A stretch of DNA of 64,000 bases, from the NCBI RefSeq assembly GCF_028747645.1, contig NZ_CP118100.1, positions 744,001-808,000 of the forward strand. Reading direction: 5' to 3'. Of the stretch, positions 2,517 to 51,894 are shown in pieces. The notes under the pieces were generated by a model. It was given only the letters and a program-made list of their open reading frames with translations. It made no database searches and had not been told where the DNA came from. Each line of letters opens with the position of its first letter. The stretch's first letter is position 1. The stretch comes from Microbacterium esteraromaticum (lineage in GTDB: Bacteria > Actinomycetota > Actinomycetes > Actinomycetales > Microbacteriaceae). Both the position numbers and the translations under genes were made by a program.

Positions 2517-2559
2517 GGCTGCAAAGCCTTCGGCGATACTGGGGCGATGCCCCTTCGCC
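2517..2559 (+). promoter_or_regulatory. Two hairpins occluding the kinase start
   Basis: GGCT-GCAA-AGCC (2517-2528) is a small GNRA-loop hairpin. The next one nests GGCGA (2532-2536)/TCGCC (2555-2559) around GGGGC (2541-2545)/GCCCC (2549-2553). The kinase ATG at 2547-2549 lies at the loop/stem boundary and its weak ribosome site is in the stem, so ribosome access would require unfolding. Confidence 0.45.
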
Positions 2560-3689
2560 TGCCGTCGCGCGACGATCAAGGTCGCCTGCGGTTGAACCGC
2601 GGTGAACGCCTGACCACCGTTGAGCGAATCGTCATGCTCACCTTCCTGGTGGTGCTGATGGCTCTCGACGTGCTCAACGCCTTCCTCTCGTCTGACTTGG
2701 ATCTCGCGGGCTCACTGCTCAGCATCACCGCTACGGCGGTGTTCATCCTCTATCTCTGGTGGCCAACTACAGCCACAGCGGCGCTTGGGGTTGTCTTCGC
2801 CATCTCGGTCGGCGTCGGCAAGGAGGCCGCTGTTCTCTTCGCCGCCGCAATCGCGGCGGGAATGGTGCTGCGGCTCGGTGCCACGGCACTCGTGCTGTCA
2901 TATGCGGGCGGGTTTCTCGTGGCTACCGCCGTTGTCGCACTTGTCGACCGTGGCGAGTCGGTGAACGTCGGCATCTACCTCGTCATCGCTGCCGTTGCTG
3001 GCGCGATCGGCTTCGCACTACGTCTCGCCTCTGCCCGCGGCGAGCGTCTGGAGCAGCAACTCGCGGCACGCGCCGAACAGGAACGCCAGGCGGTGCTCGC
3101 CGAACGCCGGTGGATCGCCGGCGAACTGCACGACAGCATCGCCCACCACCTCACCATCGTCTCGCTGCACGTGCAGCTACTCGACGACCCGAACACACTC
3201 AAGGGGTCACAGGACGCGATCCGCATCGCCACCCGTAAGGCGATGGCAGACCTGCGCTTCGTCATCGACCTCGCCGACGACGGGCCCCGGTCGACCGTCA
3301 CCCACACCGGAGACCTCGCCACCGCCATCGCAGAGGCCGCGACCGAGATCGAAGCTGCCGGCCACCGGGTGATCACCGAGGGAAACCCCAACGACGAGCG
3401 CATCCCGCGCATGGCCGAGATCGTGCTGGCTCGTATCGTCCGCGAGTCGACCACGAACATCCTCAAGTACGCAGGCCACGGCGATGTGGTCATCCGTGTC
3501 GAGACGGACGACGACACCGTCGCGCTCACCATGCTGAGCCCGCTCGCCGAGACTCCTCGCAAAGATGTGCCTTCGAGCGGAACCGGGCTCAACCGGATGG
3601 CAGAGCGCGTGATCGGTGCCAGCGGTGAATTCACCACCGGGCCCGAAGACGACCAGTGGCGCGTCGCTGCCCGCCTGCCCGTCACCTGA
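2547..3689 (+). CDS. Sensor histidine kinase (HisKA_3 type)
   Basis: About 380 residues from ATG 2547; a TTG at 2487 would add 20 residues and overlap the 15-codon ORF. Four or five hydrophobic segments occupy roughly residues 30-160, followed by a charged coiled region. The HisKA_3 dimerisation helix contains the phospho-accepting His in AGELHDSIAHHLTIVSLH, and the HATPase domain contains the N box (RESTTNILKYAG) and a Gly-rich SSGTGLNRMAERV. There is no large extracellular domain, so it likely senses the membrane or a membrane-associated signal. It pairs with the divergent response regulator at 1653-2306. Confidence 0.9.
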   Translation: MPLRLPSRDDQGRLRLNRGERLTTVERIVMLTFLVVLMALDVLNAFLSSDLDLAGSLLSITATAVFILYLWWPTTATAALGVVFAISVGVGKEAAVLFAAAIAAGMVLRLGATALVLSYAGGFLVATAVVALVDRGESVNVGIYLVIAAVAGAIGFALRLASARGERLEQQLAARAEQERQAVLAERRWIAGELHDSIAHHLTIVSLHVQLLDDPNTLKGSQDAIRIATRKAMADLRFVIDLADDGPRSTVTHTGDLATAIAEAATEIEAAGHRVITEGNPNDERIPRMAEIVLARIVRESTTNILKYAGHGDVVIRVETDDDTVALTMLSPLAETPRKDVPSSGTGLNRMAERVIGASGEFTTGPEDDQWRVAARLPVT

Positions 3690-9763: not shown

Positions 9764-9773
9764 GGGGCGTGGG

Positions 9774-9785
9774 CCAAACGTACGG
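9774..9785. repeat. Left arm of 12-bp inverted repeat flanking the broken DUF559 gene
   Basis: CCAAACGTACGG here is the exact reverse complement of CCGTACGTTTGG at 10661-10672. The two copies bracket the pseudogene at 9803-10562; this one lies 18 nt past its stop. Confidence 0.65.
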
Positions 9786-9802
9786 GGATGTCGGGACGGT
9801 AG

Positions 9803-10562
9803 TCAGTCCTGGTTGCGCTGCAGCGCGGCGAGGGTCGCAGACAGCACAGATGGCCAGCGCTTGATGATCTGGTCGTAGTCGAAGCGCAGGGTCTCGTACC
9901 CCAGAGCGGATGCTGCAGCATCCCGCACTCGGTCCTTGTGCATCTTGTCTTCGGCCTCGTGATTCTCGCGGCCGTCCGTTCAATGATCAGCCGCCCTTCG
10001 ACGACGATATCGACCTTGCCGACGCCCGACAGGACGACCTGGGTCTGCACCGCGATGCCGAGCAGATGCAACCGCAGGCGCACCAGCGACTCCAGCCCGC
10101 TTTGCGCGCCGTCGTGAGCGAAGTCGACGAGCCAGTGCGCCGCGCGGGGGAGTGCCGCACGTAGTGGAATGCATGCACCAGAGCGTGCTCCACGTCGGCG
10201 ACGCCGAGCGCCATGCGGCCAGGACGAAAGTGGGCGACGCACGAGCATCCGACGTGGTGCGCTCGGCCCGCCGCACCCATCCACACGTGCACAACGGCGT
10301 CGTCTCGGAGTGTCCAGATGCCGTGGAGCCGCAAGGCGCCCGCGCACGTGAGTGCGCCGCCGTGGCTCGCGGCTCTGCGCACCTGCGGCGGCAGAGCATC
10401 GGTCGCGAACACACCGCGGCGGATCCTGGATATCTCGCCACGCGCGACAGAATCGGCAAGATCGCGGCGAGTGAATCCGAACGCGGTGAGCTGGCGCCCG
10501 CGCGCGAGCGCCCCGAGCCGATTGACGAGTTCACGGGCGGTGATGGCAGTCGGAGCGGGCAT
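9803..10562 (-). pseudogene. Broken DUF559 (Vsr-like nuclease fold) protein gene
   Basis: Three reading frames in series rebuild one protein. From ATG 10562 the first frame gives an AbiEi-like N-terminal winged-helix/API-type region (TRRDLADSVARGEISRIRRG, ALRLHGIW) up to HAFHYVRH near 10155. After a junction near 10135-10155 the second frame continues with DGAQSGLESLVRLRLHLLGI and KVDIVVEGRLIIE. A one-base loss near 9975-9985 moves to the third frame, DGRENHEAEDKMHKDRVRD then ALGYETLRFDYDQII, ending at TGA 9803. About 40 residues expected between the N- and C-terminal halves appear deleted at the first junction. It is a paralogue of the intact gene at 50854-51696. Confidence 0.8.
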
Positions 10563-10660
10563 GCGGTCAGCCTGCGAGTTCGTGCGGCTCGTCGGATACC
10601 CGATCCCAGCGCCCGGGGAGAACTCGGGTGACGTTAGTGGCTGGGGACAACGACTGTTCA

Positions 10661-10748
10661 CCGTACGTTTGGCGGGAGGGTGAACGTTTGCCGGGGGACA
10701 CGCCGGTGCTTTCCCCTGCATCCGGACGCACTCCCGGCAAACGTGCGT
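10661..10748. repeat. Family D palindromic repeat upstream of broken DUF559 gene
   Basis: Arm 1 (ACGTTTGGCGGGAG from 10665) and arm 2 (ACGTTTGCCGGG, 10684-10695) are direct, 19 nt apart. Arm 3 (CCCGGCAAACGT, 10733-10744) is a perfect inverted copy of arm 2. The start of arm 1 also forms the right half of the 12-bp inverted repeat with 9774-9785. The arm period matches the other repeat families in this window, but the fourth arm is missing next to arm 3. Confidence 0.65.
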
Positions 10749-45061: not shown

Positions 45062-45134
45062 GAGAACAGGCTCGTTGTTGAGAACAGGACGATTCCGCGG
45101 GAATCGTCCTGTTCTCGTTAACCGTCCTGTTCTC
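45062..45134. repeat. Family A four-arm intergenic repeat, copy 1
   Basis: Direct GAGAACAGG arms at 45062-45070 and 45080-45088; inverted CCTGTTCTC arms at 45108-45116 and 45126-45134. The inner pair extends to a perfect 17-bp stem (45080-45096 with 45100-45116) with a 3-nt loop. Period 18 nt. The remainder of the guaB-osmC gap shows nothing. Confidence 0.9.
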
Positions 45135-48801: not shown

Positions 48802-48874
48802 GAGAACAGGCTCGTTGCCGAGAACAGGCTGGATTTCGAGCATCCATCCTGTTCTCGGGATTCGTCCTGTTCTC
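48802..48874. repeat. Family A four-arm intergenic repeat, copy 2
   Basis: Direct GAGAACAGG at 48802-48810 and 48820-48828; inverted CCTGTTCTC at 48848-48856 and 48866-48874. Inner stem extended by TGGAT/ATCCA. The remainder of the gap to the ABC-F gene shows only its GGAAGGA ribosome site. Confidence 0.9.
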
Positions 48875-49015
48875 GGTGAGAGGAAGTGCGCGGTGGGGAC
48901 GAGTAGCGAACGGCGAGGCACGCGCGGTGCGCGGGGAGAGTGAGCGCGACGGGGTCGGATGCCTGCGGCTGATAGCCTGGCAGGCTCGCCACTCGGTGGG
49001 CGGAAGGAAACCACC

Positions 49016-50704
49016 GTGGCCCACATCGATGTCAGTGCTCTTTCGCTGACCCTCCCTGACGGACGCCCCCTGCTCGATGACGTGACGTTCCGCGTCGGCT
49101 CCGGCGTGACCAGCGCGCTGATCGGGCCGAACGGCGCCGGCAAGTCGACCCTGCTGCGCATCATCCGCGGCGAACTCGCGGTGGATGCCGGTGCGGTGAC
49201 CATCGACGGTTCCCTGGGGGTGATGGATCAGTTCGTCGGTCACGGCGACGGCGAGATGACCGTGCAAGATCTTCTGGTGAGCGTCGCGCCCACGCGCATC
49301 CGGGCCGCCGCCGAAGCACTCGACGCCGCCGAGAACGCGCTCATCGACGCCGAGAACGAGCGCACGCAGATGGCGTACGCGACCGCGCTCGCCGACTACG
49401 CGGATGCCGGTGGCTACGAGCACGAGACCGTGTGGGACCAGTGCACGGTGGCCGCGCTCGGTGTGCCCTACGACCGTGCCCGGTATCGCTCTCTCGACAG
49501 CCTTTCGGGCGGCGAGCAGAAGCGGCTCGCCCTGGAGGCGCTGTTGCGCGGTCCCGACGACGTGCTGCTTCTGGACGAGCCCGACAACTACCTCGATGTA
49601 CCGGGAAAGCGCTGGTTGGAGCAATCTCTGCGCGACAGCGCGAAGACCGTGCTGCTGGTCTCGCACGATCGCGAGCTGCTGGCCAGAGCGGCCGATCGCA
49701 TCATCACCCTGGAGGTCGGGGGAGCGGGCGCTACGGCGTGGGTGCACGGCGGTGGGTTCGCCACGTACCATCAGGCGCGCAGCGATCGCATGGACCGCCT
49801 CGACGAGCTGCGGCGCCGCTGGGACGAGCAGCACGCCAAGCTCAAGGCACTCGTCGCCACTCTCAAGGTCAAGGCGTCCGCCAACGACGGATTCGCGTCG
49901 CGCTACCAAGCGGCCCAGACCCGACTGCGCCGGTTCGAAGAGGCGGGTCCGCCCGAAGAGCGACCACCCGCACAGGACTTTGACATGCGTCTGCGTGGTG
50001 CGCGCACCGGCAAACGGGCGCTGGTGTGCAGCGGGCTCGAGCTCACGGGCCTGATGCGGCCGTTCGATGCCGAGATCTGGTTCGGCGATCGGGTGGCCGT
50101 GCTCGGCTCGAACGGCTCTGGCAAGTCGCACTTCCTGCGCCTGCTGGCCCGCGGTGGCAGCGACCCCGATCCCACCCGGGGACATCTCACGACAGCATCC
50201 GAGGCATTGCTTCCCGTTCCGCACGGCGGCGCGGCCGTGCTCGGCGCACGCGTGGTGCCCGGCTTGTTCGCGCAGACCCACGCCCACCCGGAGTTCGTCG
50301 GACGCACCCTGCTCGACATCCTGCACCGCGGCGATGACCGACGCGCGGGGATGCCTCGCGATGCGGCCAGCTCAGCCCTCGACCGCTACGGTCTGGTCCG
50401 GCAGGCGCAGCAGGCGTTCGAGCAGCTTTCCGGAGGACAGCAGGCACGCTTCCAGGTGCTGTTGCTGGAGCTCAGCGGGGCCACCATGCTGCTTCTCGAT
50501 GAGCCCACCGACAACCTCGACCTGGAATCCGCCGAGGCGCTCGAACAGGCCATCGCGCGCTTCGAGGGTACCGTGCTGGCCGTCACCCACGACCGGTGGT
50601 TCGCGCGATCGTTCGACCGGTTCCTGGTCTTCGGCGAGGACGGTGACGTGTACGAGTCGGATGCCCCGGTCTGGGACGAGAAACGGGTGGTCCGCGCCCG
50701 GTGA
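49016..50704 (+). CDS. ABC-F family ATPase
   Basis: A 562-residue cytosolic protein, from GTG 49016, with two ABC modules and no membrane helices. First: GPNGAGKST, LSGGEQKRLALEALL, LLLDEPDNYLDVPGK. Second: GSNGSGKSH, LSGGQQARFQVLLL, LLLDEPTDNLDLESA. A charged linker lies between them. ABC-F proteins act on ribosomes (translation factors or antibiotic target protection). The second Walker A with His in place of Thr/Ser is an uncommon variant. No resistance phenotype can be read from sequence. Confidence 0.9.
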   Translation: MAHIDVSALSLTLPDGRPLLDDVTFRVGSGVTSALIGPNGAGKSTLLRIIRGELAVDAGAVTIDGSLGVMDQFVGHGDGEMTVQDLLVSVAPTRIRAAAEALDAAENALIDAENERTQMAYATALADYADAGGYEHETVWDQCTVAALGVPYDRARYRSLDSLSGGEQKRLALEALLRGPDDVLLLDEPDNYLDVPGKRWLEQSLRDSAKTVLLVSHDRELLARAADRIITLEVGGAGATAWVHGGGFATYHQARSDRMDRLDELRRRWDEQHAKLKALVATLKVKASANDGFASRYQAAQTRLRRFEEAGPPEERPPAQDFDMRLRGARTGKRALVCSGLELTGLMRPFDAEIWFGDRVAVLGSNGSGKSHFLRLLARGGSDPDPTRGHLTTASEALLPVPHGGAAVLGARVVPGLFAQTHAHPEFVGRTLLDILHRGDDRRAGMPRDAASSALDRYGLVRQAQQAFEQLSGGQQARFQVLLLELSGATMLLLDEPTDNLDLESAEALEQAIARFEGTVLAVTHDRWFARSFDRFLVFGEDGDVYESDAPVWDEKRVVRAR

Positions 50705-50754: not shown

Positions 50755-50828
50755 GAGAACAGGCTCGTTACCGAGAACAGGCGGGATTTCGGGCATCCGT
50801 CCTGTTCTCGGGATTTGTTCTGTTCTCG
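50755..50828. repeat. Family A four-arm intergenic repeat, copy 3
   Basis: Direct GAGAACAGG at 50755-50763 and 50773-50781; inverted CCTGTTCTC at 50801-50809 and a slightly decayed arm (TCTGTTCTC) at 50819-50827. It ends 26 nt from the stop of the DUF559 gene. Confidence 0.88.
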
Positions 50829-50853
50829 GTGACGCGACGCGCGGCCCAACCCC

Positions 50854-51696
50854 TCACCTGCGCGCCCGGTGCAGCCCCTGGGCGACGGCGTTGATGATCG
50901 TCTGCTGCACGTAGGTCGGGTCGAACATCACCTGTTGGTAGTCGAAGCGCAGCACGGTGTACCCGAGCAAGGCCAGCCGGGCGTCCTGACGCAGGTCGCG
51001 GCGGCGGTCCTTCGGCTTGCGGTGATGTGTGAACCCGTCCAGCTGCACCACCAGCCGTTCGCCGATCAGTGCGTCCACAGGGTGCCCGTCGATGATCACC
51101 TGCTGCTGCACCTCGACTCCGCAGCTGCGCGCGATCGCCAGGAAATGCGTCTCGACACCAGAGTCCGAAAGGGTGCCGACGACGTCGAGCACGTTCCGCA
51201 CCGCGGTGCTGCGCCATTCCGTGCGGCGCAGCTGGGGGAGCGTCACGAGACCGATGCGCAGGGCCGACTCCCAGATCGCGGTCGCATCCGAGGGTTCCTG
51301 GCAACGACCCACGTGGTAGAGCACGTTCAGTATCGGATCCTCCACGGCGAAGCGCGCGACAGGTGCCGGGCCCGGTGCCCAGTGCAGCACATGGTCGTGA
51401 TCCCCGAACCGAGACGACGTCGACGGGATCGCGAGATGCACCCGGGGGTCGTCGTTCGACCACAGCCCGAGCCGCTTCGCCGCCGTCACACACGTCACGC
51501 GACCGCTCACCTCGGCCGCCGCGCGATGCGCGCGAGAACACGGCGGGGTGACGAGCCAGGAACGTCGCACCCGCTCGGCCCTACCGGCCTCGACTGCGCT
51601 CCGCATCTCGTGCGCGGAGTAGCCAGCGGCGCGCAGATCCCTACTGTGTGCGACGCCGCCCCGCTGTCGCATCCAGGTGTCCAGGGGAGTTCTCAT
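50854..51696 (-). CDS. DUF559 (Vsr-like nuclease fold) protein with AbiEi-like N-terminus
   Basis: A 280-residue protein. The N-terminal 90 residues resemble AbiEi-type winged helix plus linker (GGVAHSRDLRAAGYSAHEMR, VTAAKRLGLW). The C-terminal DUF559 domain has SGVETHFLAIARSCGVEVQQ, then HPVDALIGERLVVQLDGFTHH and ALLGYTVLRFDYQQVM. That is the PD-(D/E)xK layout of very-short-patch-repair endonucleases: Asp in VDALIGERLVVQLDG, later Gln/Asp. The function of actinobacterial members is not established. It lies exactly between family A copies 3 and 4; a broken paralogue is at 9803-10562, also between inverted repeats. Confidence 0.85.
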   Translation of the reverse strand: MRTPLDTWMRQRGGVAHSRDLRAAGYSAHEMRSAVEAGRAERVRRSWLVTPPCSRAHRAAAEVSGRVTCVTAAKRLGLWSNDDPRVHLAIPSTSSRFGDHDHVLHWAPGPAPVARFAVEDPILNVLYHVGRCQEPSDATAIWESALRIGLVTLPQLRRTEWRSTAVRNVLDVVGTLSDSGVETHFLAIARSCGVEVQQQVIIDGHPVDALIGERLVVQLDGFTHHRKPKDRRRDLRQDARLALLGYTVLRFDYQQVMFDPTYVQQTIINAVAQGLHRARR

Positions 51697-51821
51697 GCCA
51701 CGACGATGCCGGTTGCGGGCATCGCCGTCTGTCGGTTTCGCGCCTTCTGGGGAGAACTCGTGCGAAATCGCGTTTGTGGAGGGAGAGTGGCGGTGCCGCG
51801 TCGCCGGGCGGCGGCGTCACC

Positions 51822-51894
51822 GAGAACAGGACGGATGCTGAGAACAGGACGGATGCTGCAGAATCAGCCTGTTCTCAGCAACGGGCCTGTTCTC
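51822..51894. repeat. Family A four-arm intergenic repeat, copy 4
   Basis: Two perfect tandem copies of GAGAACAGGACGGATGCT (from 51822 and 51840), then inverted CCTGTTCTC at 51868-51876 and 51886-51894. It begins 126 nt upstream of the DUF559 start and lies 97 nt before guaB3. Confidence 0.9.

Follow-up and report, generated by a model that had tools for sequence, protein, structure and literature searches.

Why should a predicted nuclease gene lie between two copies of the same hairpin? In the window analysed here, a stretch of 64,000 nt from the Microbacterium esteraromaticum genome G000 (G000:C1:744001-808000; the genome is a single 3.20-Mb contig), a gene encoding a DUF559 protein is bracketed by two copies of a repeat that we call family A, one lying 26 nt past its stop codon and the other 126 nt ahead of its start, and re-inspection of the sequence gives the same coordinates for the gene and both brackets as the initial annotation. 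That annotation also compared the layout to repetitive extragenic palindromic (REP) sequences around the genes of RAYT transposases. The results below incline us, if only by a little, to the view that the DUF559 gene and its four-arm hairpin element may form a gene-repeat pair that works in the manner of a REPtron (a TnpA-REP/RAYT gene with its REP sequences), by analogy of layout and with an unrelated enzyme.

The family A element is 73 nt long and consists of two direct 9-nt GAGAACAGG arms, a 19-nt centre and two inverted arms, with a pitch of 18 nt; the copies in the genome vary in their 9-nt spacers, with conserved arms. The 84-nt blocks around the two gene-flanking elements are 82% complementary to one another, and both elements are strong hairpins (DNA folding z-scores of -6.8 and -8.7), as are all four family A copies of the window when taken as single strands (z from -6.8 to -10.7). 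A search of the elements against known RNAs returned only microRNA-precursor matches under the curated cut-offs, which we take to be a plain effect of the hairpin. Plain transcription terminators were set aside as an explanation since they would not give gene-specific families that match across a gene; the match at L324 does resemble a terminator hairpin. CRISPR-like arrays were also set aside, as there is no array in the stretches examined. The commonest 10-mer of the window as a whole is CGGCATCCGC/GCGGATGCCG, with 16 copies, and words of the GGATGC type appear repeatedly among its most frequent 10-mers.

Matched repeats on both flanks of DUF559 genes

DUF559 is present in all 59 Microbacterium genomes searched. 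For each gene compared, sequence lying 600-1500 nt ahead of the stop codon was matched with that from -30 to +500 around it, and a best ungapped match with a score of at least 16 was counted as a pass. In a first set of 46 genes from 36 Microbacterium genomes (six from G000 itself and 40 loci from 35 other genomes of the genus, the 40 being hand-picked among the stronger matches listed and so not random), matched repeats occupy both flanks of 35, against 9 of 219 control stops of open reading frames (ORFs) in the same stretches. The second set comprised 80 named loci, the best 80 of 223 confirmed; 58 of the 79 that were testable had matched flanks, against 5 of 412 long control ORFs, and with stricter controls, required to have 100 nt without any long ORF to each side, the figure was 0 of 74. 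The two sets overlap by at least four genes (L086/L245, L103/L272, L080/L278 and L076/L285). It is on these proportions that we do not regard the flank match as a product of chance, and the excess over control positions that the initial annotation had predicted is a large one. At one locus, L095, the two flanking elements are near-identical, with 79 of 79 positions matching.

Beyond the genus, matched flanks were found in Leucobacter (score 53), Plantibacter (53 and 38), Microterricola (32), Agromyces Root81 (24) and a metagenome-assembled genome of the Actinomycetota (17). The flank matches of Okibacterium, Mycetocola, Cryobacterium and Agromyces italicus fell under the threshold in the second set; in the geometry scan described below, the flanks of Okibacterium, Cryobacterium and A. 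italicus were no better than controls, and Mycetocola gave one pitch-19 pattern at 6.5, a score also reached by 2 of 144 controls. In our view it is established in Microbacterium, and indicated in several other Microbacteriaceae, that DUF559 genes are paired with their own hairpin families.

Private families and arm pitch

The repeats are largely private to their genes. In the first set, the mean score between the two flanks of the same gene is 32.3, whereas upstream flanks compared with the downstream flanks of other genes have a mean of 14.6, and only 27 of 600 such comparisons reach 16. Within G000, a PF04480 profile search identified six DUF559 ORFs whose flanks carry six different repeat families; four of the six match across the gene at a score of 16, and all six do so by eye only, the two under the threshold being L029, where the arms match by eye, and L027, where one arm is ~1.4 kb off with two other genes inside. 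A second DUF559 sequence of the window, a broken paralogue that DUF559 proteins match in separate pieces only, lies outside these six. The initial annotation had proposed that it too was bracketed by repeats, and this is borne out by a 16-nt inverted repeat that spans the gene (9773-9788/10658-10673, 94% complementary); upstream of it, three arms of the same architecture as family A can be read, at a pitch of 19 nt. DUF559 genes are often disrupted with their flanking elements still recognisable, as at 9803-10562 of the window, at L028, at L219 and at several more loci.

How closely do element and protein follow one another? Across 34 genes, element likeness and protein identity have a Spearman correlation of 0.18, a value as high as which was found in 6 of 2000 permutations (L088 was left out before this correlation because its match sat in coding sequence). 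Ten of the 12 element pairs at a score of at least 14 belong to proteins with an identity of at least 0.5, and, in the other direction, only 7 of the 13 protein pairs at an identity of at least 0.62 have elements that are alike, from which we conclude that elements change faster than proteins. Among orthologues of the window gene, those at 67-79% identity keep GAGAACAGG-type arms; at 64-65% the geometry is unchanged and the arms are of the GTAGGC type.

It is geometry, rather than any common tag, that the repeat families compared have in common. A scan that ignores sequence found four-arm patterns (score of at least 7) in 62 of 159 flanks and in none of 144 control stretches; the pitch was 18 nt in 20 of the 62 patterns, 19 nt in 41 and 26 nt in one. 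When the 18- and 19-nt pitches were placed on a tree of 57 proteins, four changes were required, compared with 17.8 in shuffles, and none of 500 shuffles was as low (three rows of this tree, L233, L267 and L281, come from disrupted frames, and two of them sit on very long branches). Protein, arm sequence and pitch are thus shown to vary in concert, a link that is loose for sequence and clear for pitch, and part of this covariation may be explained by vertical inheritance of whole loci. In the subfamily of L031, another DUF559 gene, 11 of 12 loci reach a flank score of at least 16.

Dispersal, gains and losses

The initial annotation had asked whether the flanking family is also the most abundant one in its genome. 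Dispersal throughout the genome was found in all three families that were counted. Family A has 24 exact half-elements in G000 and none of the reversed pattern; with up to two mismatches there are 37 against 0 reversed, which merge by hand into ~20 places. The L031 family (CGAGGGGTCA...TGACCCCTCG, 57-58 nt) occupies 17 places in G000, two of which flank the gene, with a reversed control of 0; elsewhere in the genus it has a single place in G005, with nothing in the remaining 57 genomes searched; the counts in G091 and G033 are 20 and 0. In the Leucobacter genome, 25 matches to the family of its gene were counted at up to three mismatches (control 0), of which two flank the gene.

The copy number of family A also differs with the presence of its gene. 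In five of the 59 genomes a DUF559 gene with GAGAACAGG-type flanks was seen, G000, G058, G007, G027 and G033 (in G027, exact arms lie at one side of the gene only), and they hold 24, 17, 12, 4 and 3 half-elements, or 21, 14, 12, 4 and 1 once the gene-flanking copies are excluded. Among the remaining 54 genomes, whose DUF559 flanks were inspected in part only, 41 have none, seven have one and two have two, for a median of 0. A one-sided rank test without the gene-flanking copies gives p = 2e-5, or 1e-4 without G000, in a comparison that is partly circular because the arms themselves served to identify cognate genes. The clade genes of G001, G014, G017 and G049 also have single exact arms next to them, and p becomes 9e-6 if these four are counted as cognate.

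Related genomes differ around the elements. Relative to G000, the genome G091 has a 152-nt deletion in the DUF559 gene and is missing a 104-nt stretch that carries the upstream element; loss in G091 is the likelier course since G033 has an upstream element. In G000 a 12.3-kb segment, whose ORFs look from their translations like sulfate assimilation genes (CysN, CysD, CysH, sulfite reductase and a transporter), lies between two direct family A copies (L357, G000:C1:3066000-3081000), and G091 has one copy and no segment at the corresponding locus (L360). The ABC-F-type gene that lies between two family A elements of the window is missing in G033, where one element remains. Finally, a ~1-kb gene between element-like sequences in G091 is absent from G000. 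Beside one family A element (L192/L207 in G091, L023 in G000) each strain has a different small gene, so that the site looks like a spot of gene exchange. A search for clean insertion sites and target duplications between G000 and both G091 and G033 turned up none; the differences were segments gained or lost between elements, tandem changes and a single element that was absent, and ordinary homologous recombination would suffice for all these gains and losses. One apparently strain-specific copy, at G091 C1:1300460, was rejected when it proved to be present in G000 with intact arm cores; G091 has another, apparently extra copy at C2:58178.

These same segments speak for hitchhiking, in which the repeats spread by some other means and come to bracket many genes through homologous recombination, DUF559 being a frequent cargo like the ABC-F-type gene, the 12.3-kb segment and the ~1-kb gene. 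We already disfavour this explanation and consider it the least probable of those discussed here, as control genes seldom have matched flanks, the families differ gene by gene and pitch tracks the protein tree. A second explanation, that the gene and its two elements constitute a composite mobile unit, a new insertion sequence (IS)-like element with hairpin ends whose solo copies are non-autonomous remnants, would account for near-identical elements on both sides, as at L095, and palindromic ends are also the borders of IS200/IS605 elements as these are described in PMC8266576. It is unlikely all the same: a close second copy of the window gene is lacking in G000 (the next match is 45% over part of the gene), its orthologues occupy the same locus in five further genomes, no empty site was resolved in the genome comparisons, and DUF559 had no match in phage records and one only in plasmid records, with no viral contig confirmed. 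The window gene looks to be single-copy and vertically inherited within its lineage.

Protein fold and likeness to REPtrons

The proteins of the window type match DUF559/MTES_1575 and AbiEi in Pfam, and a structural model has an AbiEi-like fold in residues 1-177 followed by a nuclease domain with the predicted PD-(D/E)XK core of Vsr and I-Bth0305I, in support of the Vsr-like fold guessed at first; the AbiEi-like fold and the family match are thus both present. D208, D220 and D234 are invariant among 50 sequences and H225 nearly so, and nuclease activity is predicted. PADLOC gave weak matches to AbiEi (E 1.8e-4) and to a homing endonuclease model (E 9.1e-4), an NCBIfam search with five proteins found no family at a useful score, and a match to the Toxoplasma gondii mitoribosome among the structure and profile matches is thought by us to reflect nothing more than a shared fold. 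The role of Vsr is the repair of T:G mismatches, and that of I-Bth0305I is homing in phages; to our knowledge, no dispersed repeat family is associated with either.

The modelled N-terminal fold raises the possibility that the elements are operators, sites at which an AbiEi-like regulator controls itself and other genes with the nuclease domain serving some other end. AbiEi-type antitoxins are described as binding inverted repeats, in sets of two or four, within their own promoters, and AbiEi antitoxins and Rv2827c have the fold of residues 1-177 (PMC7319586); as that source presents them, they have no nuclease domain and their sites lie within one promoter and are not dispersed. A simple promoter role is barred by the elements past the stop codon and by the many that are far from any DUF559 gene, and we regard operators as improbable, somewhat more so than a composite unit. 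A little less probable again is a self/non-self or addiction system, in which the nuclease would cut by reference to the element, and the elements would protect or mark the host chromosome. The restriction-like fold and the PADLOC matches are consistent with it, as is the account of Caulobacter VsrA, a DUF559 protein and predicted Vsr-like endonuclease which damages DNA once its methyltransferase is lost (PMC12907096), yet such a system leaves the dispersal of private families unexplained, and the genes are often broken while elements persist. VsrA is tied to a solitary cytosine methyltransferase, and the portion of its account available mentions no repeats (PMC12907096).

The closest likeness is to REPtrons, including REP, BIME and REPIN repeats. 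As outlined in PMC8266576, PMC3116915 and PMC3733652, they share with the loci here an enzyme gene flanked by palindromic repeats, dispersal of hairpin-forming repeats throughout the genome, several genes per genome each with a different repeat family, apparent enzyme-repeat co-evolution and a gene that is apparently chromosomal and single-copy. The analogy proposed initially therefore stands for layout, matched flanks (with few matches between genes) and dispersal in three families. It fails for the enzyme and the tag: the REP-tied enzymes of those accounts are HUH tyrosine transposases, whereas the Pfam matches here are DUF559/MTES_1575 and AbiEi and the modelled structure has a Vsr/I-Bth0305I fold in place of that of an HUH Y1 (IS200/IS605-like) enzyme, and the element has two direct and two inverted arms at a pitch of 18 or 19 nt in place of a GTAG-tagged palindrome. 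Copies number in the tens here and in the hundreds for REPs. With neither the HUH transposase nor the GTAG-type tag found, we do not file the system as a REPtron, and rate the pairing as a new kind because neither enzyme nor element belongs to the REP family. TIRYT genes and TIRtrons, RAYT-like genes with long terminal inverted repeats, also have inverted repeats around the gene and moderately abundant families, and their enzymes are still described as tyrosine transposases (PMC3733652). Searches of open-licence PMC texts listed no paper whose title or abstract opening connects DUF559 with repeats, and the text of the RepRanger survey (PMC12306157) contains neither Microbacteri- nor RAYT.

We would put slightly above an even chance the broader proposition that a REP-like system has arisen for a second time, in Actinobacteria, one in which AbiEi-Vsr fusion nucleases maintain and spread private families of four-arm hairpins, with several orthogonal pairs per genome and co-evolution of the protein with both arm sequence and pitch (18 or 19 nt). 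The mechanism that appears to fit best is one in which the protein copies or moves the elements. The AbiEi-like part would read the arms, much as antitoxins of the AbiEi type do with groups of inverted repeats, and the Vsr/I-Bth0305I-like domain might then nick or cut the element, either as such or folded into a hairpin. Repair of the break, or strand transfer there, could copy the element and on occasion also the DNA that separates two copies, and the element copies would afterwards act as crossover points for gene gain and loss.

Several observations weigh against such a system. Flanks matched at a score of 16 are lacking in 11 of 46 and 21 of 79 genes, those of G029, G014 and G012 within the clade of the window gene are weak or unmatched, and in the L031 subfamily the single locus below the threshold is that of the closest relative (G023, 64%), which lacks a flanking repeat. 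Elements are unlike in 6 of the 13 protein pairs at an identity of at least 0.62, and hairpins of another layout in the L031 subfamily and in Plantibacter indicate that the geometry is not universal. Beyond the three families counted throughout genomes, the local excess is weak: a match to the rest of the element's own 15-kb locus at a score of at least 15 was found in 6 of 50 cases against 6 of 150 for other loci, a weak sign. The expectation that copy number would follow the gene holds for the five genomes with a GAGAACAGG-flanked gene but not for G016, G020, G053 and G029, with 3, 4, 4 and 5 family A copies and no such gene seen. No transposition event, cut site or target duplication was seen, and the usual catalytic Glu is replaced by Gln in the window clade. 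The five copies of G029 are a tandem run of GAGAACAGG arms at an 18-nt pitch from which the inverted half is absent (L032, G029:C3:251283-251381).

If the proposition is true, a second, unrelated fold would occur in the same layout, and a gene with a private dispersed hairpin would be a convergent solution. DUF559 would gain a testable job, many of the short dispersed hairpins of these genomes would be explained, and dozens of protein-site pairs would become available for learning how an AbiEi-type domain selects DNA.

Table 1. Positions in the window of the DUF559 genes, their repeats and the neighbouring features.
Feature	Position	Strand	Remarks
DUF559 (PF04480) gene	50854..51696	minus	280 aa; AbiEi-antitoxin-like N-terminal part and Vsr/I-Bth0305I-like nuclease domain (predicted)
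Family A four-arm element	50755..50827		Downstream of DUF559 gene; one of four arms with one change
Family A four-arm element	51822..51894		Upstream of DUF559 gene; missing in same-species genome G091
Broken DUF559 paralogue	9803..10562	minus	
Second repeat family, arm	9773..9788		Downstream of broken paralogue
Upstream element of broken paralogue	10658..10744		Arms at 10665 and 10684 (pitch 19), inverted arm at 10733
Family A element	48802..48874		No DUF559 gene of its own; pairs with the 50755 copy around the ABC-F-type gene
ABC-F-type ATPase gene	48959..50704	plus	Assigned from translation; between two family A elements
Family A element	45062..45134		Intergenic, after guaB-type gene

Of the genome's six DUF559 loci, two have an ABC-F-type ATPase gene as neighbour, that of the window and L028 (at 2553-3284).
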